Of a stretch of 64,000 nucleotides of DNA, positions 51,422-59,023 are shown one piece after another; position 1 is the first letter of the stretch, and each line of letters starts with the position of its first letter. Under the pieces are notes generated by a model. That model was not told the DNA's origin, ran no database searches, and worked only from the letters and a program-made list of their open reading frames with translations. The translations under genes were made by a program, and so were the position numbers. The stretch is from Halobacteriovorax sp. (GTDB taxonomy: Bacteria > Bdellovibrionota > Bacteriovoracia > Bacteriovoracales > Bacteriovoracaceae): NCBI GenBank assembly GCA_002720865.1, contig PBIO01000014.1, positions 124,001-188,000 of the forward strand, read 5' to 3'.

Positions 51422-51523
51422 GCGGCAATAGGGCTAAATGCACAGCAGCGCTTTGGCTACCGTTGCTTCCTTCCGGACCTGGCGGAGTTCACCCAGCAAC
51501 TGCTTGCATCGCCCTATTACCGC
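51422..51523 (-). ncRNA. ffs: signal recognition particle RNA (4.5S type)
   Basis: The RNA contains the SRP domain IV loop with the strictly conserved CAGGTCCGGAAGGAAGCA in the middle. The ends pair as GCGGTAATAGGGC with GCCCTATTGCCGC (one G-U). Its 3' end is followed by TTATCTTTTTTT, a T-rich terminator. It binds Ffh and targets nascent membrane proteins. It lies directly upstream of dnaX on the same strand, as in several groups. Ends are approximate to within a few bases. Confidence 0.95.
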
Positions 51524-51577: not shown

Positions 51578-51641
51578 AAGAATGGCGGAGGACAAGAGAT
51601 TCGAACTCTCGATACCCGGAGGTATACCCGCTTTCCAAGCG
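51578..51641 (-). repeat. left copy of 64-bp direct repeat (attachment site)
   Basis: 64 bases identical to 55759-55822, which is the 3' part of tRNA-Ser(GGA) plus flanking bases. It marks the far end of an element inserted at the tRNA gene. Confidence 0.9.
51583..51641 (-). pseudogene. truncated tRNA-Ser(GGA), 3' 59 nt including anticodon arm
   Basis: The sequence equals the intact tRNA-Ser(GGA) at 55764-55853 from the CCA end through the anticodon arm. It then diverges completely, so D arm and 5' acceptor strand are missing and no functional tRNA can form. It is the displaced 3' end left when the island integrated. Confidence 0.9.
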
Positions 51642-51689
51642 TGTTTAATTATGCATTTTTCTAGAACAACCAGAATATCGGGGGTATCC

Positions 51690-51730
51690 AAGTCTAATTC
51701 CTCTTGTTGCTACTTGTTATTATTAGACTT
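51690..51730. repeat. 9-bp inverted repeat near the left island end
   Basis: AAGTCTAAT and ATTAGACTT lie 23 bases apart, between the protease stop (51763) and the left repeat. It is too widely spaced for a clear terminator; it may be a recombinase arm-site relic or chance. Confidence 0.3.
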
Positions 51731-51762
51731 ATTGTTTATTCATTGACCAATATTCTCGCTTA

Positions 51763-54261
51763 TTAAATTTCAATATCAGTTTCAACTTCGATCTCAGTTT
51801 CTATTACGTTTTGAACATGGTTATATATTTCCGTAGTCACATCAGGCGATTCAAGGGAAATTACAATTGAATACCTAAGAGATTCCTCCCATCTGGCCTT
51901 TCGCTTATGCTCTTTCCACCATCCGCCTACAGGAAAAACTGCTAATTTTGATTTACCTGCCAATTCTGCAGCTGTACCATTCCAAATATCACAATGAACA
52001 CTTCCTCTTGTTCTTAAATCTGGACCCAAAAACCAATTATCATTATCATCACTTTGTGTAGAGTCAACATCATCAAAAGAGCCAGATACTCGTCTTTGAA
52101 ATGATTCTACTGAATCGGTTGGTGACATTGTTGTAAACCGAAGTCCAAAAGATGAATATTGAAACTTTTTAATACTCCCTCTTCTAGAGGGGTTTGGCTC
52201 AATATAATAACTCACGGTAACTTTCATCTTTATTTCAGCATCACCTAGTTCCCTCAAAACATCAGTAGGCCAAGGCAAATCAATTAAATCAAAGTTATCA
52301 TAAGTTACATAACCACTATCTGTTTGTTTATATGGTGTTAAAGTTCTTTGAGAGACTAATGTAACCTCATTCTTTGCACAGGCTAAAGCATATTCAATAT
52401 CTGGGACACCATATCCATACTTTCTTATAAGTGAATGTACCTCTATTTTTCTGCTAAACGGGGCAAATTCATTTAACATCTGCTCAGTCCAACTTGCACT
52501 ATGAATTATTAATGCTCTTACAGTCTCCGGCCAATATTCGGGATAACTAGATTGAATTTTTGCTGTTAAATTTGCTGCCAAAGAGGCTGCGCTACTTGTA
52601 CCCGTTGAGTAATCGAAAACTTTATTATTCGCACCACTTGTGGTGATAACCCCGAGAGAAGCTGTTTCTGTAGCCTCTGTCCCTTCGTTGTTAACAGCTA
52701 AGTTTCCACCTTCAAGAACAATATCTGGTTTTAATGGAAAGTTTGAAGTTTTTGACCACGTTAAAGTAGTTGTACTCGTAGGAGACAATGAGCCCTTGTC
52801 TGCAAGTGGAGACCAGGCACCAAGCAGACTGGGTTCTTGCAAATTATCAAAATTTGTATATGCCCCTACAGTTAGAGCATTCCAAGATTGTGCGGGGTCT
52901 TGTACAGATAATAACTCGTTCATTTCTGGATAGTTGAGAGGATATCCATCATAGCGAGCATTTCCAGCTGAAACTATGAAAAGTTTTTGATTGCTTCCTT
53001 CTCCATAAGAAACTTTATCCAAAGTAGCAGACCAAGAAGTTGCTTCTCCCTTTATTCCGAGATGAGGGTCTGTTACCGCCATTGAATATATCTTCTCTTT
53101 AGTAGGGGATGCTATTTCAGACTGAGAGACTGCTTGCTCTGTTATCGATGGATAGTTTGCTACATTATTTGAACCAATAGGTGGAAGAATTTTCACTGAT
53201 CCGATACTGTGGTTAATATCAATCGTTTCATTATCCAGTAAGTTTTTTAACATATCACCATACTGAACAATTCCTATCATATTGGTTCCATGAAATAAGT
53301 GATGACTATCGTGTACGCCCCATTCAGCATCAATGGAAGTTAGTTTTTCAGGGTCAACAATACTCTCAAGCAAAGGATTATGAATATTAGCCCCTGTATC
53401 TAATACCCATACTTCTGTTTCATTTTCGACATGATTAATACGATTATTAAAGTCTGTAGCCAATTCAAACTGCTCTTCAATATTCATGTCATCTATAATT
53501 GGATGTGGTGTATCAGCAGGTTTTCTTAGCTCACAAATAATTTTTTGATAATGTAAAATGTTAGATAAGTTTTTTGAGGTAGATTTCACTAAAACCATAA
53601 ACCTATCAACAAAAGCCACAGGGTTGCCGAACTGTTCAATATTATATGTGCTACAGAAGTTATTAAATTTTCCCAATATTACATCTGTACCAAATATCCA
53701 GACTTCCCAATACACTTCTAAGTTTTCATCCTCTGGATAATCACTTCCATCACTGGTCCATAGCGACTCCAAAATTGCTAACTTTAAATCATTAATACTT
53801 TCAACTAAAAACTTTGGTTTACTTTCTTCAAATGATTTTTTTATTTTCTTTTCTAATCTATCTACTTTTCCTTCTGGAACATAAACGACCACTTGGTCTG
53901 AGCCATCATCATTCTTTCTATAACTAACAACCTCAAAACCCGTTCTACTATCTTCTAAGTTTTCAAACTTTAGCTCAAACTCTTCGCCTTCTGCCTCATC
54001 TTTTTCTTTTCCTTTCACCTCAATATAAAAGCCTTCCGGTTCAACTTCTAAATTCTGAGCCTCTCGAAACTCTTCAAGCTCTCTGCTAGCAAAATTCAAC
54101 TTTTCTAGCACTGTCTCTGCGTGACGCTCTCTATTAATTCGAGTCGGATAAGCATTATTAGCATTACCCCTTGCAGGGCGAGGGTATACATAATCGTGAG
54201 AATTTACGAAATTATTTGGCAATAGTATATTTTTATTAGGCCGTTCCAAGTTACCCCCCAT
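51763..54261 (-). CDS. subtilisin-like (S8) serine protease, IetS-like
   Basis: The 832-residue protein has an S8 protease domain over roughly residues 270-640, with the full catalytic set (numbering from this start). Asp288 lies in W-V-L-D-T-G-A-N, His324 in F-H-G-T-N, the oxyanion Asn434 in V-S-A-G-N, and Ser556 in G-T-S-S-A-A-S. There is no signal peptide, so it is cytoplasmic. The N-terminus (I-L-L-P-N-N-F, then N-R-E-R-H-A-E-T-V-L-E-K-L) matches proteins paired with AAA ATPases. The C-terminal 200 residues are beta-rich and unassigned. With the ATPase it fits IetAS, known from plasmid maintenance and anti-phage defence. I start at ATG 54261; a TTG at 54279 is possible, with no ribosome site at either. 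Confidence 0.88.
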   Translation of the reverse strand: MGGNLERPNKNILLPNNFVNSHDYVYPRPARGNANNAYPTRINRERHAETVLEKLNFASRELEEFREAQNLEVEPEGFYIEVKGKEKDEAEGEEFELKFENLEDSRTGFEVVSYRKNDDGSDQVVVYVPEGKVDRLEKKIKKSFEESKPKFLVESINDLKLAILESLWTSDGSDYPEDENLEVYWEVWIFGTDVILGKFNNFCSTYNIEQFGNPVAFVDRFMVLVKSTSKNLSNILHYQKIICELRKPADTPHPIIDDMNIEEQFELATDFNNRINHVENETEVWVLDTGANIHNPLLESIVDPEKLTSIDAEWGVHDSHHLFHGTNMIGIVQYGDMLKNLLDNETIDINHSIGSVKILPPIGSNNVANYPSITEQAVSQSEIASPTKEKIYSMAVTDPHLGIKGEATSWSATLDKVSYGEGSNQKLFIVSAGNARYDGYPLNYPEMNELLSVQDPAQSWNALTVGAYTNFDNLQEPSLLGAWSPLADKGSLSPTSTTTLTWSKTSNFPLKPDIVLEGGNLAVNNEGTEATETASLGVITTSGANNKVFDYSTGTSSAASLAANLTAKIQSSYPEYWPETVRALIIHSASWTEQMLNEFAPFSRKIEVHSLIRKYGYGVPDIEYALACAKNEVTLVSQRTLTPYKQTDSGYVTYDNFDLIDLPWPTDVLRELGDAEIKMKVTVSYYIEPNPSRRGSIKKFQYSSFGLRFTTMSPTDSVESFQRRVSGSFDDVDSTQSDDNDNWFLGPDLRTRGSVHCDIWNGTAAELAGKSKLAVFPVGGWWKEHKRKARWEESLRYSIVISLESPDVTTEIYNHVQNVIETEIEVETDIEI

Positions 54262-54299
54262 GGACAAGCTAACGACCAAATCTAAATATCACAAAATGT

Positions 54300-55259
54300 T
54301 TATTGTTTAAAGAAAGGCTTAAGTGACTCCTCATCGACAAAAAAGTTATCATTTAAGATAATTTCCTTAGCGACCTCATTGCATGCTCTAACTATTTCAG
54401 CATGATTCATGCCTTCAGCGTACTCTGCAACTTTTTTCCAACTCACTTTATTTTTTACGAATGAAAATAACCTATCTCTCATAAGAGATTCGACAACACT
54501 TAAGTCTGGGTTCTTGTATTCTATGACTTTATCAAACCTTCTAAACAGTGCATCATCCAACAACTCGGGATGGTTAGTTGCTGAAATTATTATGCTATCA
54601 CCTCTAGAGTTCTCGAAAAGCTGTAAAAATGAGTTTAGTACTCTTCTAATTTCTCCAACGTCATTATTCTTATTTCTTTTTGCACCTATTGCATCAAACT
54701 CATCAAACAAATAAACCGCCCGATGAGAGTTAATGTGGTCAAAAACAAGCTTAAGCTTTGATGCAGACTCACCCATAAACCTTGAAAGTAGTCCCTCAAA
54801 CTGAACTGTATAGAGAGGTATGTTTAACTCATTCGCAATCACACTTGCGGTTAGAGTTTTCCCTGTACCCGGAGGACCTGTTAGTAATAGCTTGCTAATA
54901 GGCTCGTAACCGAAATCTTTTAATCTAAATCTTTGTTTCTGTTCTTTTAAAAGCTTATACAAAAACGTGTCAATATCCTGAGAGAAGACAACATCTTTAA
55001 GCGTTTCCCTTGGGTGGGTAAGGCTAAACAATCCAGAAAGTTCCCCTTTTATCTTCTTTGGAATTAAAGTCTCTTGAGAACTTACAGATTTTCTTTTTTC
55101 TCTTCCTTTATCTATTAATTCTTTGATGTCGGAAGCTAGATTATTTTGTCCCTTCTTGGCAGCGTTGGCAGCAACTTGCAAAGCAACAGTAATAAATCTC
55201 TCTGAGTCATCTTCAAAGTATGAATTTATCAATGCTTTTAACTGGTCTTTATTGGCCAT
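54300..55259 (-). CDS. AAA+ ATPase, IetA-like
   Basis: The 319-residue protein is a single AAA+ module of the FtsH/katanin-like class. It has Walker A G-P-P-G-T-G-K-T near residue 130, a pore-type F-M-G-E-S, Walker B Y-L-F-D-E-F-D-A-I-G, sensor 1 I-S-A-T-N-H and an arginine finger A-L-F-R-R-F-D. The first 100 residues are charged helix. There is no protease domain, so it probably unfolds or delivers a target to the adjacent subtilase. This pairing is what defines IetAS. The start overlaps the ribbon-helix-helix gene by 11 bp, and the protease starts about 40 bases after its stop. Confidence 0.9.
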   Translation of the reverse strand: MANKDQLKALINSYFEDDSERFITVALQVAANAAKKGQNNLASDIKELIDKGREKRKSVSSQETLIPKKIKGELSGLFSLTHPRETLKDVVFSQDIDTFLYKLLKEQKQRFRLKDFGYEPISKLLLTGPPGTGKTLTASVIANELNIPLYTVQFEGLLSRFMGESASKLKLVFDHINSHRAVYLFDEFDAIGAKRNKNNDVGEIRRVLNSFLQLFENSRGDSIIISATNHPELLDDALFRRFDKVIEYKNPDLSVVESLMRDRLFSFVKNKVSWKKVAEYAEGMNHAEIVRACNEVAKEIILNDNFFVDEESLKPFFKQ

Positions 55260-55518
55260 TGCTTTTCTCGTTTAGATTACCGTCCAAATCTATAGAGCTA
55301 TCAACAAAATCTTCTATGATTTTAGATAAATAGCCGCTCGCAGTGTATTTAGCCGGCATCATTTTTTCGCCTTTTAGCTTTTCGACCCTTTTAGATATTT
55401 TTTCAACTGAAGTCGTTGTTAGCCTTATCGAAAGGGTCTTTTTTTCCACTTCCAAAAAATCACTTTCAGACTCGGCAACACTCAATAAAAGGCTGGATTT
55501 CTCTTTTTCTCTACTCAC
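55249..55518 (-). CDS. small ribbon-helix-helix-like DNA-binding protein, probable island regulator
   Basis: The 89-residue product contains K-K-T-L-S-I-R-L-T (a typical ribbon strand), then a helix (S-V-E-K-I-S-K-R-V-E-K-L) and a second helix after a turn (A-S-G-Y-L-S-K-I-I-E-D-F-V). This is the layout of CopG/Arc-type repressors. It starts at GTG, with GGGGG just upstream. A perfect 11-bp inverted repeat lies 11 bases before the start, an obvious candidate autoregulatory operator. Overlap with the ATPase gene suggests a three-gene operon. Fold call by pattern only. Confidence 0.65.
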   Translation of the reverse strand: MSREKEKSSLLLSVAESESDFLEVEKKTLSIRLTTTSVEKISKRVEKLKGEKMMPAKYTASGYLSKIIEDFVDSSIDLDGNLNEKSNGQ

Positions 55519-55528
55519 ACCCCCAATC

Positions 55529-55568
55529 TTAATAATTATTTATTAATTAATCAATATATAATTATTAA
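55529..55568. promoter_or_regulatory. 11-bp inverted repeat upstream of the ribbon-helix-helix gene
   Basis: TTAATAATTAT and ATAATTATTAA are perfect arms, 18 bases apart, ending 11 bases before the GTG start. It would overlap the promoter of the island operon, the usual place for autorepression by a ribbon-helix-helix protein. Confidence 0.55.
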
Positions 55569-55712
55569 TCACATCAGTGCGCCAGGTATTAAAATTCATT
55601 GATATTCGAGTTTTTAATACAACAATCAATAAACAAACTTATCGAGTAACTTAAAGCGCTAGAAATATTGCAGAGCATATTAGCTTATTGAGCTGACCAA
55701 GAAAAACTCAAA

Positions 55713-55760
55713 GGGATAAAGGGATAAAGGGATAAAGAAATAAAGAAATAAAGAAATAAA
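55713..55760. repeat. 8-bp tandem repeat, six units
   Basis: Three copies of GGGATAAA are followed by three copies of GAAATAAA without interruption. The array abuts the right attachment repeat and the tRNA 3' end. It reads T-rich on the tRNA strand and may end tRNA transcription; its length may vary by slippage. Confidence 0.9.
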
Positions 55761-55822
55761 GAATGGCGGAGGACAAGAGATTCGAACTCTCGATACCCGG
55801 AGGTATACCCGCTTTCCAAGCG
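55759..55822 (-). repeat. right copy of 64-bp direct repeat (attachment site)
   Basis: Identical to 51578-51641. It covers the last 59 nt of the intact tRNA-Ser(GGA), including the anticodon arm, and five bases beyond its CCA. Confidence 0.9.
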
Positions 55823-55853
55823 AGCGCCTTCGACCACTCGGCCAATCCTCCGC
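55764..55853 (-). tRNA. tRNA-Ser(GGA)
   Basis: 90 nt with acceptor GCGGAGG paired to CCTCCGC, encoded CCA, a long variable arm typical of tRNA-Ser, TTCGAAT in the T loop and the anticodon GGA in loop TTGGAAA. It is the intact copy and the integration target of the island on its 3' side. Confidence 0.96.
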
Positions 55854-57328: not shown

Positions 57329-59023
57329 TTACTTATAATCTTTGTTTTTTTCTAGCTCTATATATAGATGCATTGAAAGAAGTCCTGAAAAAGGTCTTAT
57401 TAATAAATCGGCCATTTTCCCTAACACTAGAAACTTAGAGTTTCTTAGCAGAAAGGATATAGGACCAAGGTGTTTTACTTTTGAAATAGACACAAAAGGG
57501 TATTCCTTTAAAAATGTCTCTTTATTTTTAACTAGGTCATTGTAGAGCTTTAATTTTTTAGGCTCTTTTTTGTCGTTTAAAAGTTTATAAAAAAGACCTG
57601 GGTAACTACCTGACATTTTTAAGTTAAAACCATTTAAGATAGTTGAGCGAAGAAAATAATTGAGATCATTTAATTGATGGTAAGTATGATTAAGAACTAA
57701 ACCTTTTTCCGCTCCAGAATATACTGTTCGCCAGTAGGGGTCTTTGATTTCTAATATATCTTCTGTAATTATTTTTTTATCAAAAATAAACTCCTGTTCC
57801 AAAGGTACCCAGCCATTTAATTCTGAGAAGGAACTATATAGATCTTTCAATGAAGGTCTCTTCAGTATTTCGTCTAGCTCTGAGTTATCTTTGAAAAGAA
57901 AATATAATTCTTTTCGACTTGGCTTTTGCTCTACTGAACCCTCAAGTAACTCGAACGTTTTTAAGAAGTTTTTGAACAAAAACTGATCATCAAAACTCCC
58001 TATCTTAATTTTAGCTTTATCTATCAAGGAGCTAGAAATTTCTTTGGTTAAGCTTAGGGGTGAGTGGAGTATTGACAACCCGATCATCTCACACAAAAAA
58101 ACATCGCAAGGTATCTGGTAGTGATATAGAAAATCTAGAAAAGTTTCTATATTCAACATCGTGAGGATTGATAGTGTTATTGAAAAAGACTCTAGATTAA
58201 ATTTATGATGCTTGCTTAACCAATCAAGATTTTTTAAAAATAAGTTCCAGTTTAACCCGTCTCTTATGAGCTCAACTATTTCACCTGTACCATCCAAGCT
58301 AACTTTGAAAGAGACAGAGTTAAAATTATTTAATAATTCTTCGTTAGATTCTAAATTTCTTAAAGGGAAAGAGAGGTTAGTATTATAAACGAGATCAATA
58401 TTCTGTGCCTGATCCAAACGAACACATTCTTCTAAAAACTTCCAATGGGAAGGTTGAATTAATACTTCACCAGAGGCCCAATACATTTTTGTAATATTTC
58501 CATCTTCGATGAGTTTTTTAAGTTCTGGTTCAAAAAGAGTTTTATTGAGGGTTTTTTTTTGCTCAATCAAATTTAAATCTTCACTTTTAGCAAAACCAGT
58601 TTTCTTTAGCGCTGTTTCTATCTTTGAAGAGGATTCAGCATTACACATCCGACAAGAAAGATTGCAATCATTACTTAACCTATAATCCACAAAGCTAGGT
58701 AGACCTTCAAATCTTCCGTCTTGATCGGTTCTTCTTAAGTTAGAAAATTTATCTATTTTATTAAAAATTTCTTTTGGCTTATCATGGGTGATTTGTTGAT
58801 CTAGACAAGCTCGGCAATACTCAGGTGGAGCTGTGCCTGACAACATTGTTTTTCTAATTTTCCTTAACTCTTCACTATTCCAGTAGTCTTCAAATTTTTC
58901 CCAATACCTATCTTTAAATGGCTCAGCTTGAGTACATAGAGCTCTTTGCCCAATCATATTAACGTGGGAGTGAACCCAGGGGGCCAGGCAAAAAGGGATT
59001 GTTTCATTTGATTTATTCACCAT
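57329..59023 (-). CDS. radical SAM protein, twitch/SPASM-like
   Basis: The 564-residue protein has the radical SAM cluster C-N-L-S-C-R-M-C (Cys120, Cys124, Cys127), preceded by D-Y-R-L-S-N-D. A second Cys set occurs early: F-C-L-A-P-W near residue 12, A-L-C at 30, and C-R-A-C at 70-73. This N-terminal pattern is typical of twitch-domain radical SAM proteins, in which it binds an auxiliary cluster. The C-terminal 250 residues are helical and unassigned. The reaction cannot be named; relatives modify peptides or lipids/sugars. It stands alone between tRNA genes, and its start (ATG 59023) lacks a clear ribosome site. Confidence 0.85.
   Translation of the reverse strand: MVNKSNETIPFCLAPWVHSHVNMIGQRALCTQAEPFKDRYWEKFEDYWNSEELRKIRKTMLSGTAPPEYCRACLDQQITHDKPKEIFNKIDKFSNLRRTDQDGRFEGLPSFVDYRLSNDCNLSCRMCNAESSSKIETALKKTGFAKSEDLNLIEQKKTLNKTLFEPELKKLIEDGNITKMYWASGEVLIQPSHWKFLEECVRLDQAQNIDLVYNTNLSFPLRNLESNEELLNNFNSVSFKVSLDGTGEIVELIRDGLNWNLFLKNLDWLSKHHKFNLESFSITLSILTMLNIETFLDFLYHYQIPCDVFLCEMIGLSILHSPLSLTKEISSSLIDKAKIKIGSFDDQFLFKNFLKTFELLEGSVEQKPSRKELYFLFKDNSELDEILKRPSLKDLYSSFSELNGWVPLEQEFIFDKKIITEDILEIKDPYWRTVYSGAEKGLVLNHTYHQLNDLNYFLRSTILNGFNLKMSGSYPGLFYKLLNDKKEPKKLKLYNDLVKNKETFLKEYPFVSISKVKHLGPISFLLRNSKFLVLGKMADLLIRPFSGLLSMHLYIELEKNKDYK

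Follow-up and report, generated by a model that had tools for sequence, protein, structure and literature searches.

What keeps a 4.2-kb island in a tRNA gene when it has no integrase of its own? The question is raised by a locus of Halobacteriovorax sp. (assembly GCA_002720865.1, contig PBIO01000014.1, positions 124,001 to 188,000 of the forward strand; these 64,000 nucleotides are here called the window, and its numbering is used below), where a few genes lie between an intact tRNA-Ser(gga) gene and a displaced fragment of it. Based on comparisons with related genomes and with characterized homologues, we propose that the locus is a recent, integrase-free piece flanked by attachment-site (att) copies, which carries an IetAS toxin-antitoxin/anti-phage operon and is retained by addiction, with a probability of roughly 0.68. 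In wider terms, the best reading is an att-flanked leftover, or a scrap mobilised in trans, that is kept by an addiction/defence module. The features that define the insertion are the following.

55764-55851, minus strand: tRNA-Ser(gga), the intact target gene (ARAGORN, Rfam RF00005)
55759-55822, minus strand: tRNA-proximal attachment-site copy (exact-repeat comparison)
51578-51641, minus strand: distal attachment-site copy, a displaced tRNA fragment (64/64 identical to the proximal copy)
51424-51518, minus strand: signal recognition particle (SRP) RNA gene, host flank directly past the distal copy (Rfam RF00169; adjoins the tRNA in congeners)

The coordinates bear out a first-pass annotation of this DNA, which had described an intact tRNA-Ser(GGA), a 64-bp exact repeat of its 3' part about 4.2 kb away and three same-strand genes in between. 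No other tRNA gene scanned in the genome is a gga isoacceptor. The two 64-bp copies are exact and direct, with a spacing of 4,181 bp, and the proximal one comprises 59 nt of the tRNA 3' part and 5 nt beyond. As a control, about 38 tRNA genes of the same genome were scanned for 3' repeats within 17 kb: repeats longer than 16 bp occur only at tRNA-Ser(gga) and at tRNA-Asp (36 bp, with an integrase), and the matches at tRNA-Phe and tRNA-Arg measure 14-16 bp. Since a single other tRNA exceeds 16 bp, the 64-bp repeat is not a chance match. Its start coincides exactly with the 5' side of the anticodon stem (CGC-TTGGAAA-GCG). Crossover subsites in tRNA genes are anticodon-centred (A) or lie at the T-stem/junction (J) in the scheme of Islander (PMC4383910); the repeat is of the A kind and starts at a recognised subsite.

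In both available congeners, G001 and G002, TadA - tRNA-Ser - SRP RNA - dnaX follow one another without a break, the tRNA and SRP RNA genes being only about 60 to 95 bp apart, and the window without the island aligns with both genomes across the junction. As the site is empty in both, the 4.2-kb island is a real insertion, and the location at tRNA-Ser proposed in the first-pass annotation holds. Third codon positions of dnaX, tadA and ybaB differ by 42-46% between the window and G001, whereas the att copies show 0 differences, which indicates that the insertion is recent or that the copies have been converted.

Between the att copies lie only three genes, all on the minus strand and at high coding density.

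55249-55518, minus strand: small coding gene, 89 aa, GTG start (codon bias)
54300-55259, minus strand: ietA, AAA+ ATPase, 319 aa (PADLOC IetA E 4.4e-74; tree)
51763-54249, minus strand: ietS, subtilisin-like (S8) protease, about 828 aa (Pfam Peptidase_S8 1.5e-47; PADLOC IetS 2.1e-28; catalytic residues)

The pairing of an ATPase with a subtilase had been matched to IetAS, and profiles, phylogeny and catalytic residues together assign the two proteins to IetA and IetS. IetA matches PADLOC PDLC02196 over residues 2-313 (E 4.4e-74, next to 2.6e-71 for IetA of the Agrobacterium Ti plasmid), and IetS matches PDLC02198 over residues 284-832 (E 2.1e-28); in bits, the window and Ti-plasmid proteins score 248 and 239 for IetA, 97 and 86 for IetS. 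The IetA motifs are intact (Walker A GPPGTGKT, Walker B YLFDEFD, sensor/Arg region SATNHPELLDDALFRRFD), and 21/21 of the IetS sequences compared retain the catalytic Asp, His, Asn and Ser. On one strand, ietA is followed directly by ietS, the same order as in the plasmid loci examined. A tree of 38 rows, built for IetA only, places the window protein with that of G022 (100/100), a member of the same family but another genus, within a 27-row IetA group that includes Ti-plasmid IetA (98/99) and leaves FtsH outside (100/100). With the NCBIfam models NF042959 and NF042956 the window scores 192/510 and 56/900 bits, below the equivalog cut-offs. The Ti-plasmid pair also misses them (IetA 199/510, IetS no match), so these cut-offs delimit a narrow subgroup rather than the family, and we dropped them as a test of membership. 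The ietS reading frame extends to an earlier alternative start at 54279, but the TTG at 54249, preceded by GGGGGG, is the more likely start. In the AlphaFold model of IetS (mean predicted local distance difference test score, pLDDT, 57), the stretch ahead of the catalytic domain folds as strand-helix-strand-strand-helix-strand, and the top Foldseek matches include subtilase pro-forms, weakly suggesting a possible subtilisin-type prodomain.

Neither an integrase nor a remnant of one was found within the island (best tblastn E 0.2), and its three open reading frames (ORFs) include no transfer genes. The anatomy suggested by the first-pass annotation is therefore correct; dependence on a helper element is putative. 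The same annotation placed the missing integrase outside known descriptions, which does not hold. Elements that lack integration and transfer genes but keep attL and attR are cis-mobilizable elements (CIMEs), for which a tandem of an integrase-bearing element and an integrase-free piece is a described route of origin (PMC5704250), and IetAS on islands is likewise on record (SGI1 sgiAT). The window island, with att copies at both ends (64-bp exact, congener sites empty) and neither integrase nor transfer genes, is a CIME-like element of a known kind carrying a known system. It differs from a CIME in that it stands alone, with no functional element in tandem, and its mobilisation is putative.

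Related pieces place the island among its kind. The closest IetAS, in G022 (IetA 65% and IetS about 50% identical), lies at L058:9110-13946, bounded by tRNA-Ser(gct) on one side and, at a distance of 4.7 kb, by a 26-nt repeat of the tRNA 3' end (92%) on the other; no integrase was seen among the ORFs of this piece. It also holds a divergent helix-turn-helix (HTH)-like 77-aa ORF and a 94-aa ORF. A second IetAS piece of this form, at a different tRNA-Ser and in another genus, would suit a compact mobile satellite, a 4.2-kb unit that moves without an integrase by means of a helper integrase and uses the small gene as its own regulator, as would the att copies that are identical despite the 42-46% third-position divergence (recent insertion, or conversion) and the absence of any integrase remnant. 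We nevertheless consider a satellite very unlikely: no second copy of the element and no helper with this site were identified, genes for replication or packaging are absent from the island, the small gene shows no relation to known regulators, and the G022 piece differs in att sequence and accessory genes.

At tRNA-Ser(gga) itself, G019 has a 7.3-kb integrase-bearing element with a 20-bp repeat (L281:203-7484; integrase recognised by eye). Its other ORFs, also judged by eye, include a replication-initiator-like ORF and a cluster encoding 348, 105 and 190 aa that may be defence cargo. In G024 (C19, L273/L274) the same tRNA is followed by a 13-kb integrase-bearing element and then, in tandem, by a 0.9-kb integrase-free piece, the two being separated and ended by tRNA 3' copies of 20 and 21 bp. 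The 0.9-kb piece encodes a RelE/ParE-family toxin (TIGR02683, 4.1e-17) and an addiction-module antidote (TIGR02684, 1.5e-7), the former just short of its model's cut-off and the latter below it. Together with a further piece in G014, considered below, the elements of G019, G024 and the window mark this tRNA-Ser as an attachment hotspot with repeated integrase-free pieces. Because the other repeats are short and J-type while that of the window island is long and A-type, the integrase that inserted this island was probably of another subfamily than those of its neighbours. Elsewhere in the phylum, G153 has an IetAS-like locus in a tRNA-Asn island with an integrase.

These observations, combined with functional work on homologues, are compatible with the following sequence of events. 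A tyrosine recombinase, from another element or from a gene since lost, would have inserted the piece into the 3' part of the tRNA gene, so that the tRNA gene is made whole again by the end of the island, and the far boundary is marked by the displaced 3' fragment. IetA would then keep IetS harmless until phage infection, an incompatible plasmid or loss of the piece disturbs the balance, whereupon the IetS protease would attack cellular or invader proteins and bring the cell to a halt. If the module punishes its own loss in this way, the piece is hard to lose, and little else need remain between the att copies. The analogy comes from SGI1: its sgiAT, homologous to ietAS of pTiC58, is a protease toxin - ATPase antitoxin pair in E. 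coli and Salmonella (PMC5006074), and deletion of sgiAT destabilises SGI1 when a helper plasmid causes excision (PMC5006074; PMC5704250). By this analogy, a toxin-antitoxin role, left out by the first-pass annotation, may best explain the scant retained content, and addiction would be the cause of retention. Alternatively, the operon may be a defence cassette against phages or plasmids that is kept by selection from invaders. IetAS is classed as anti-phage in PADLOC and NCBIfam, and the pTiC58 pair is described, in the wording of a title cited in PMC5006074, as determining stability and incompatibility. This reading overlaps with addiction and departs from it in the cause of retention, a difference that sequence alone cannot settle, and we regard it as a tentative but serious contender, somewhat short of even odds.

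Several points weigh against retention by addiction following a single insertion. The toxin and antitoxin roles of the window pair are carried over from the SGI1 and pTiC58 homologues. Among the seven PF00589 genes of the genome, no helper with this attachment site was found; only the one at tRNA-Asp has a matching tRNA repeat, and a helper integrase in the same genome was rejected. The tRNA itself points to a longer history. Compared with G001 (alignment, counted by eye), it has 10 differences in the last 46 nt and 1 in the first 42, the lone 5' difference (position 5, acceptor stem) being compensatory and restoring an acceptor-stem pair, a pattern suggesting that an integrating element has replaced the 3' half. 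Yet the distal tRNA 3' copy (51583-51641) carries the same derived sequence as the tRNA and not the ancestral half. Since a single insertion predicts an ancestral distal copy, either repeated recombination or gene conversion must be invoked, and the island history is more complex than one insertion. Finally, the integrase-free piece that G014 carries at tRNA-Ser(gga) (L064:7347-9227; 1.8 kb, exact 21-bp repeat) has a single gene, which is glyoxalase-like; hence addiction modules are not the sole content of such pieces.

The G014 piece would also fit simple decay, in which a larger integrase-bearing island lost everything except IetAS by internal deletion and addiction played no part. Integrase-bearing islands are present at the same site (7.3 kb in G019, 13 kb in G024), and the G024 tandem corresponds to the described route to CIMEs. 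On the other side, the densely coding window island holds no decayed genes, and IetAS or another toxin-antitoxin pair remains in 3/4 of the integrase-free pieces (window, G022 and G024; not G014). We therefore judge decay without addiction to be unlikely and favour retention by addiction, and we note that the repeated finding of such modules in the integrase-free pieces at tRNA-Ser genes of this family rests on few cases.

The third gene of the island adds a further feature. It overlaps ietA by 11 nt, which makes translational coupling of the two likely as judged from the gene layout. Its codon score per codon (0.217) is on par with those of ietA (0.207) and ietS (0.203), and the other frames stay below 0.08, which argues that it is coding. 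No homologue was detected in 369 genomes of the phylum, in plasmids, viral contigs or the PDB, and no profile matched in Pfam, NCBIfam, PADLOC or PHROGs. The first-pass annotation had called the product ribbon-helix-helix-like, an assignment by eye that we do not retain: Pfam ribbon-helix-helix models gave no match at E up to 1, a model built from relatives scored 2.0 bits, a value that 200 of about 1,800 shuffles (~11%) also attain, and the single-sequence AlphaFold prediction (pLDDT 65, low confidence) has helices at 3-50 and 60-75 and no strand. A small gene coupled to ietA is annotated at 0/11 plasmid IetAS loci and was seen at 0/15 genome or viral loci; in G231 a different HTH-like ORF overlaps ietA, and the G022 locus has an unrelated 66-aa ORF. 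The small gene is thus an accessory and no regular component of IetAS; its role may be regulatory.

Two non-coding features lie upstream of the small gene.

About 55529-55568, + strand coordinates: 11-bp perfect inverted repeat with an 18-nt spacer, upstream of the small gene (shuffle test)
55710-55763, no strand: six 8-bp units arrayed head to tail (ATAAAGAA/ATAAAGGG), on the inner side of the tRNA-proximal end (Tandem Repeats Finder)

The inverted repeat, previously put forward as an operator, exists as described, with arms TTAATAATTAT/ATAATTATTAA of pure A/T sequence. As an operator it is a suggestive candidate, since equal repeats arise in 3/500 shuffles of 100 bp and 9/500 of 245 bp. The tandem units may serve as arm sites for a recombinase or form no more than a simple repeat. 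Scans for sigma-70 promoters and terminators gave chance-level results, and base composition was of no help as a mark of foreign origin, island G+C being that of the surroundings. Further along the same tRNA cluster, a radical-SAM-like gene (by eye) occupies 57329-59023 between tRNA-Ser(gct) and tRNA-Arg; in G001 and G002 the corresponding interval measures only about 150-300 bp, with a short remnant match in G001, which makes this a further gain or loss. Elsewhere in the genome, the tRNA-Asp element (C3, L261:8968-16564) spans 7.5 kb between 36-bp exact repeats and encodes a 413-aa tyrosine recombinase with 37.5% identity to that of the G024 element. A second product, of 597 aa, looks by eye like a VirD4/TraG coupling protein, and the element is possibly mobilizable.

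A broader proposal would treat IetAS and RelE/ParE modules across the family as the selfish residue of tRNA-Ser islands, in att-flanked pieces that lack an integrase, consist largely of such a module, are impossible to lose and are moved again in trans by integrase-bearing islands that share the tRNA genes, with the small gene as a new regulator or third component of IetAS; we hold this to be distinctly doubtful. The locus nonetheless shows IetAS, a poorly understood system, away from plasmids and large islands, in an element of which the module is practically the whole. It makes testable whether toxin-antitoxin/abortive-defence modules are the last cargo of decaying islands because their loss is punished, in one family whose four integrase-free pieces, located at two tRNA-Ser genes, can be compared with one another, empty sites and integrase-bearing islands serving as controls.

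In comparison with known systems, the window pair shares with the Agrobacterium Ti-plasmid IetAS (pTiC58 type) the ietA-ietS order, the catalytic set, the IetA clade and equal full-length profile scores. IetA is only about 45% identical to its Ti counterpart, the pair is chromosomal and on an att-flanked piece, and the overlapping small gene is absent at the Ti locus. With SGI1, the window shares an IetAS homologue on an integrated island, which in SGI1 acts as a toxin-antitoxin system and stabilises the island (PMC5006074). SGI1, however, exceeds the window island many times in size and itself encodes an integrase and transfer functions, whereas the module makes up nearly the whole of the window island. 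Within the family, the G024 piece has the same tRNA-Ser(gga) target, likewise lacks an integrase and holds only a toxin-antitoxin pair. It differs from the window island in its size of 0.9 kb, its RelE/ParE-type module, its 20-21-bp repeats at the T-stem/acceptor junction and its position in tandem with an integrase-bearing element.

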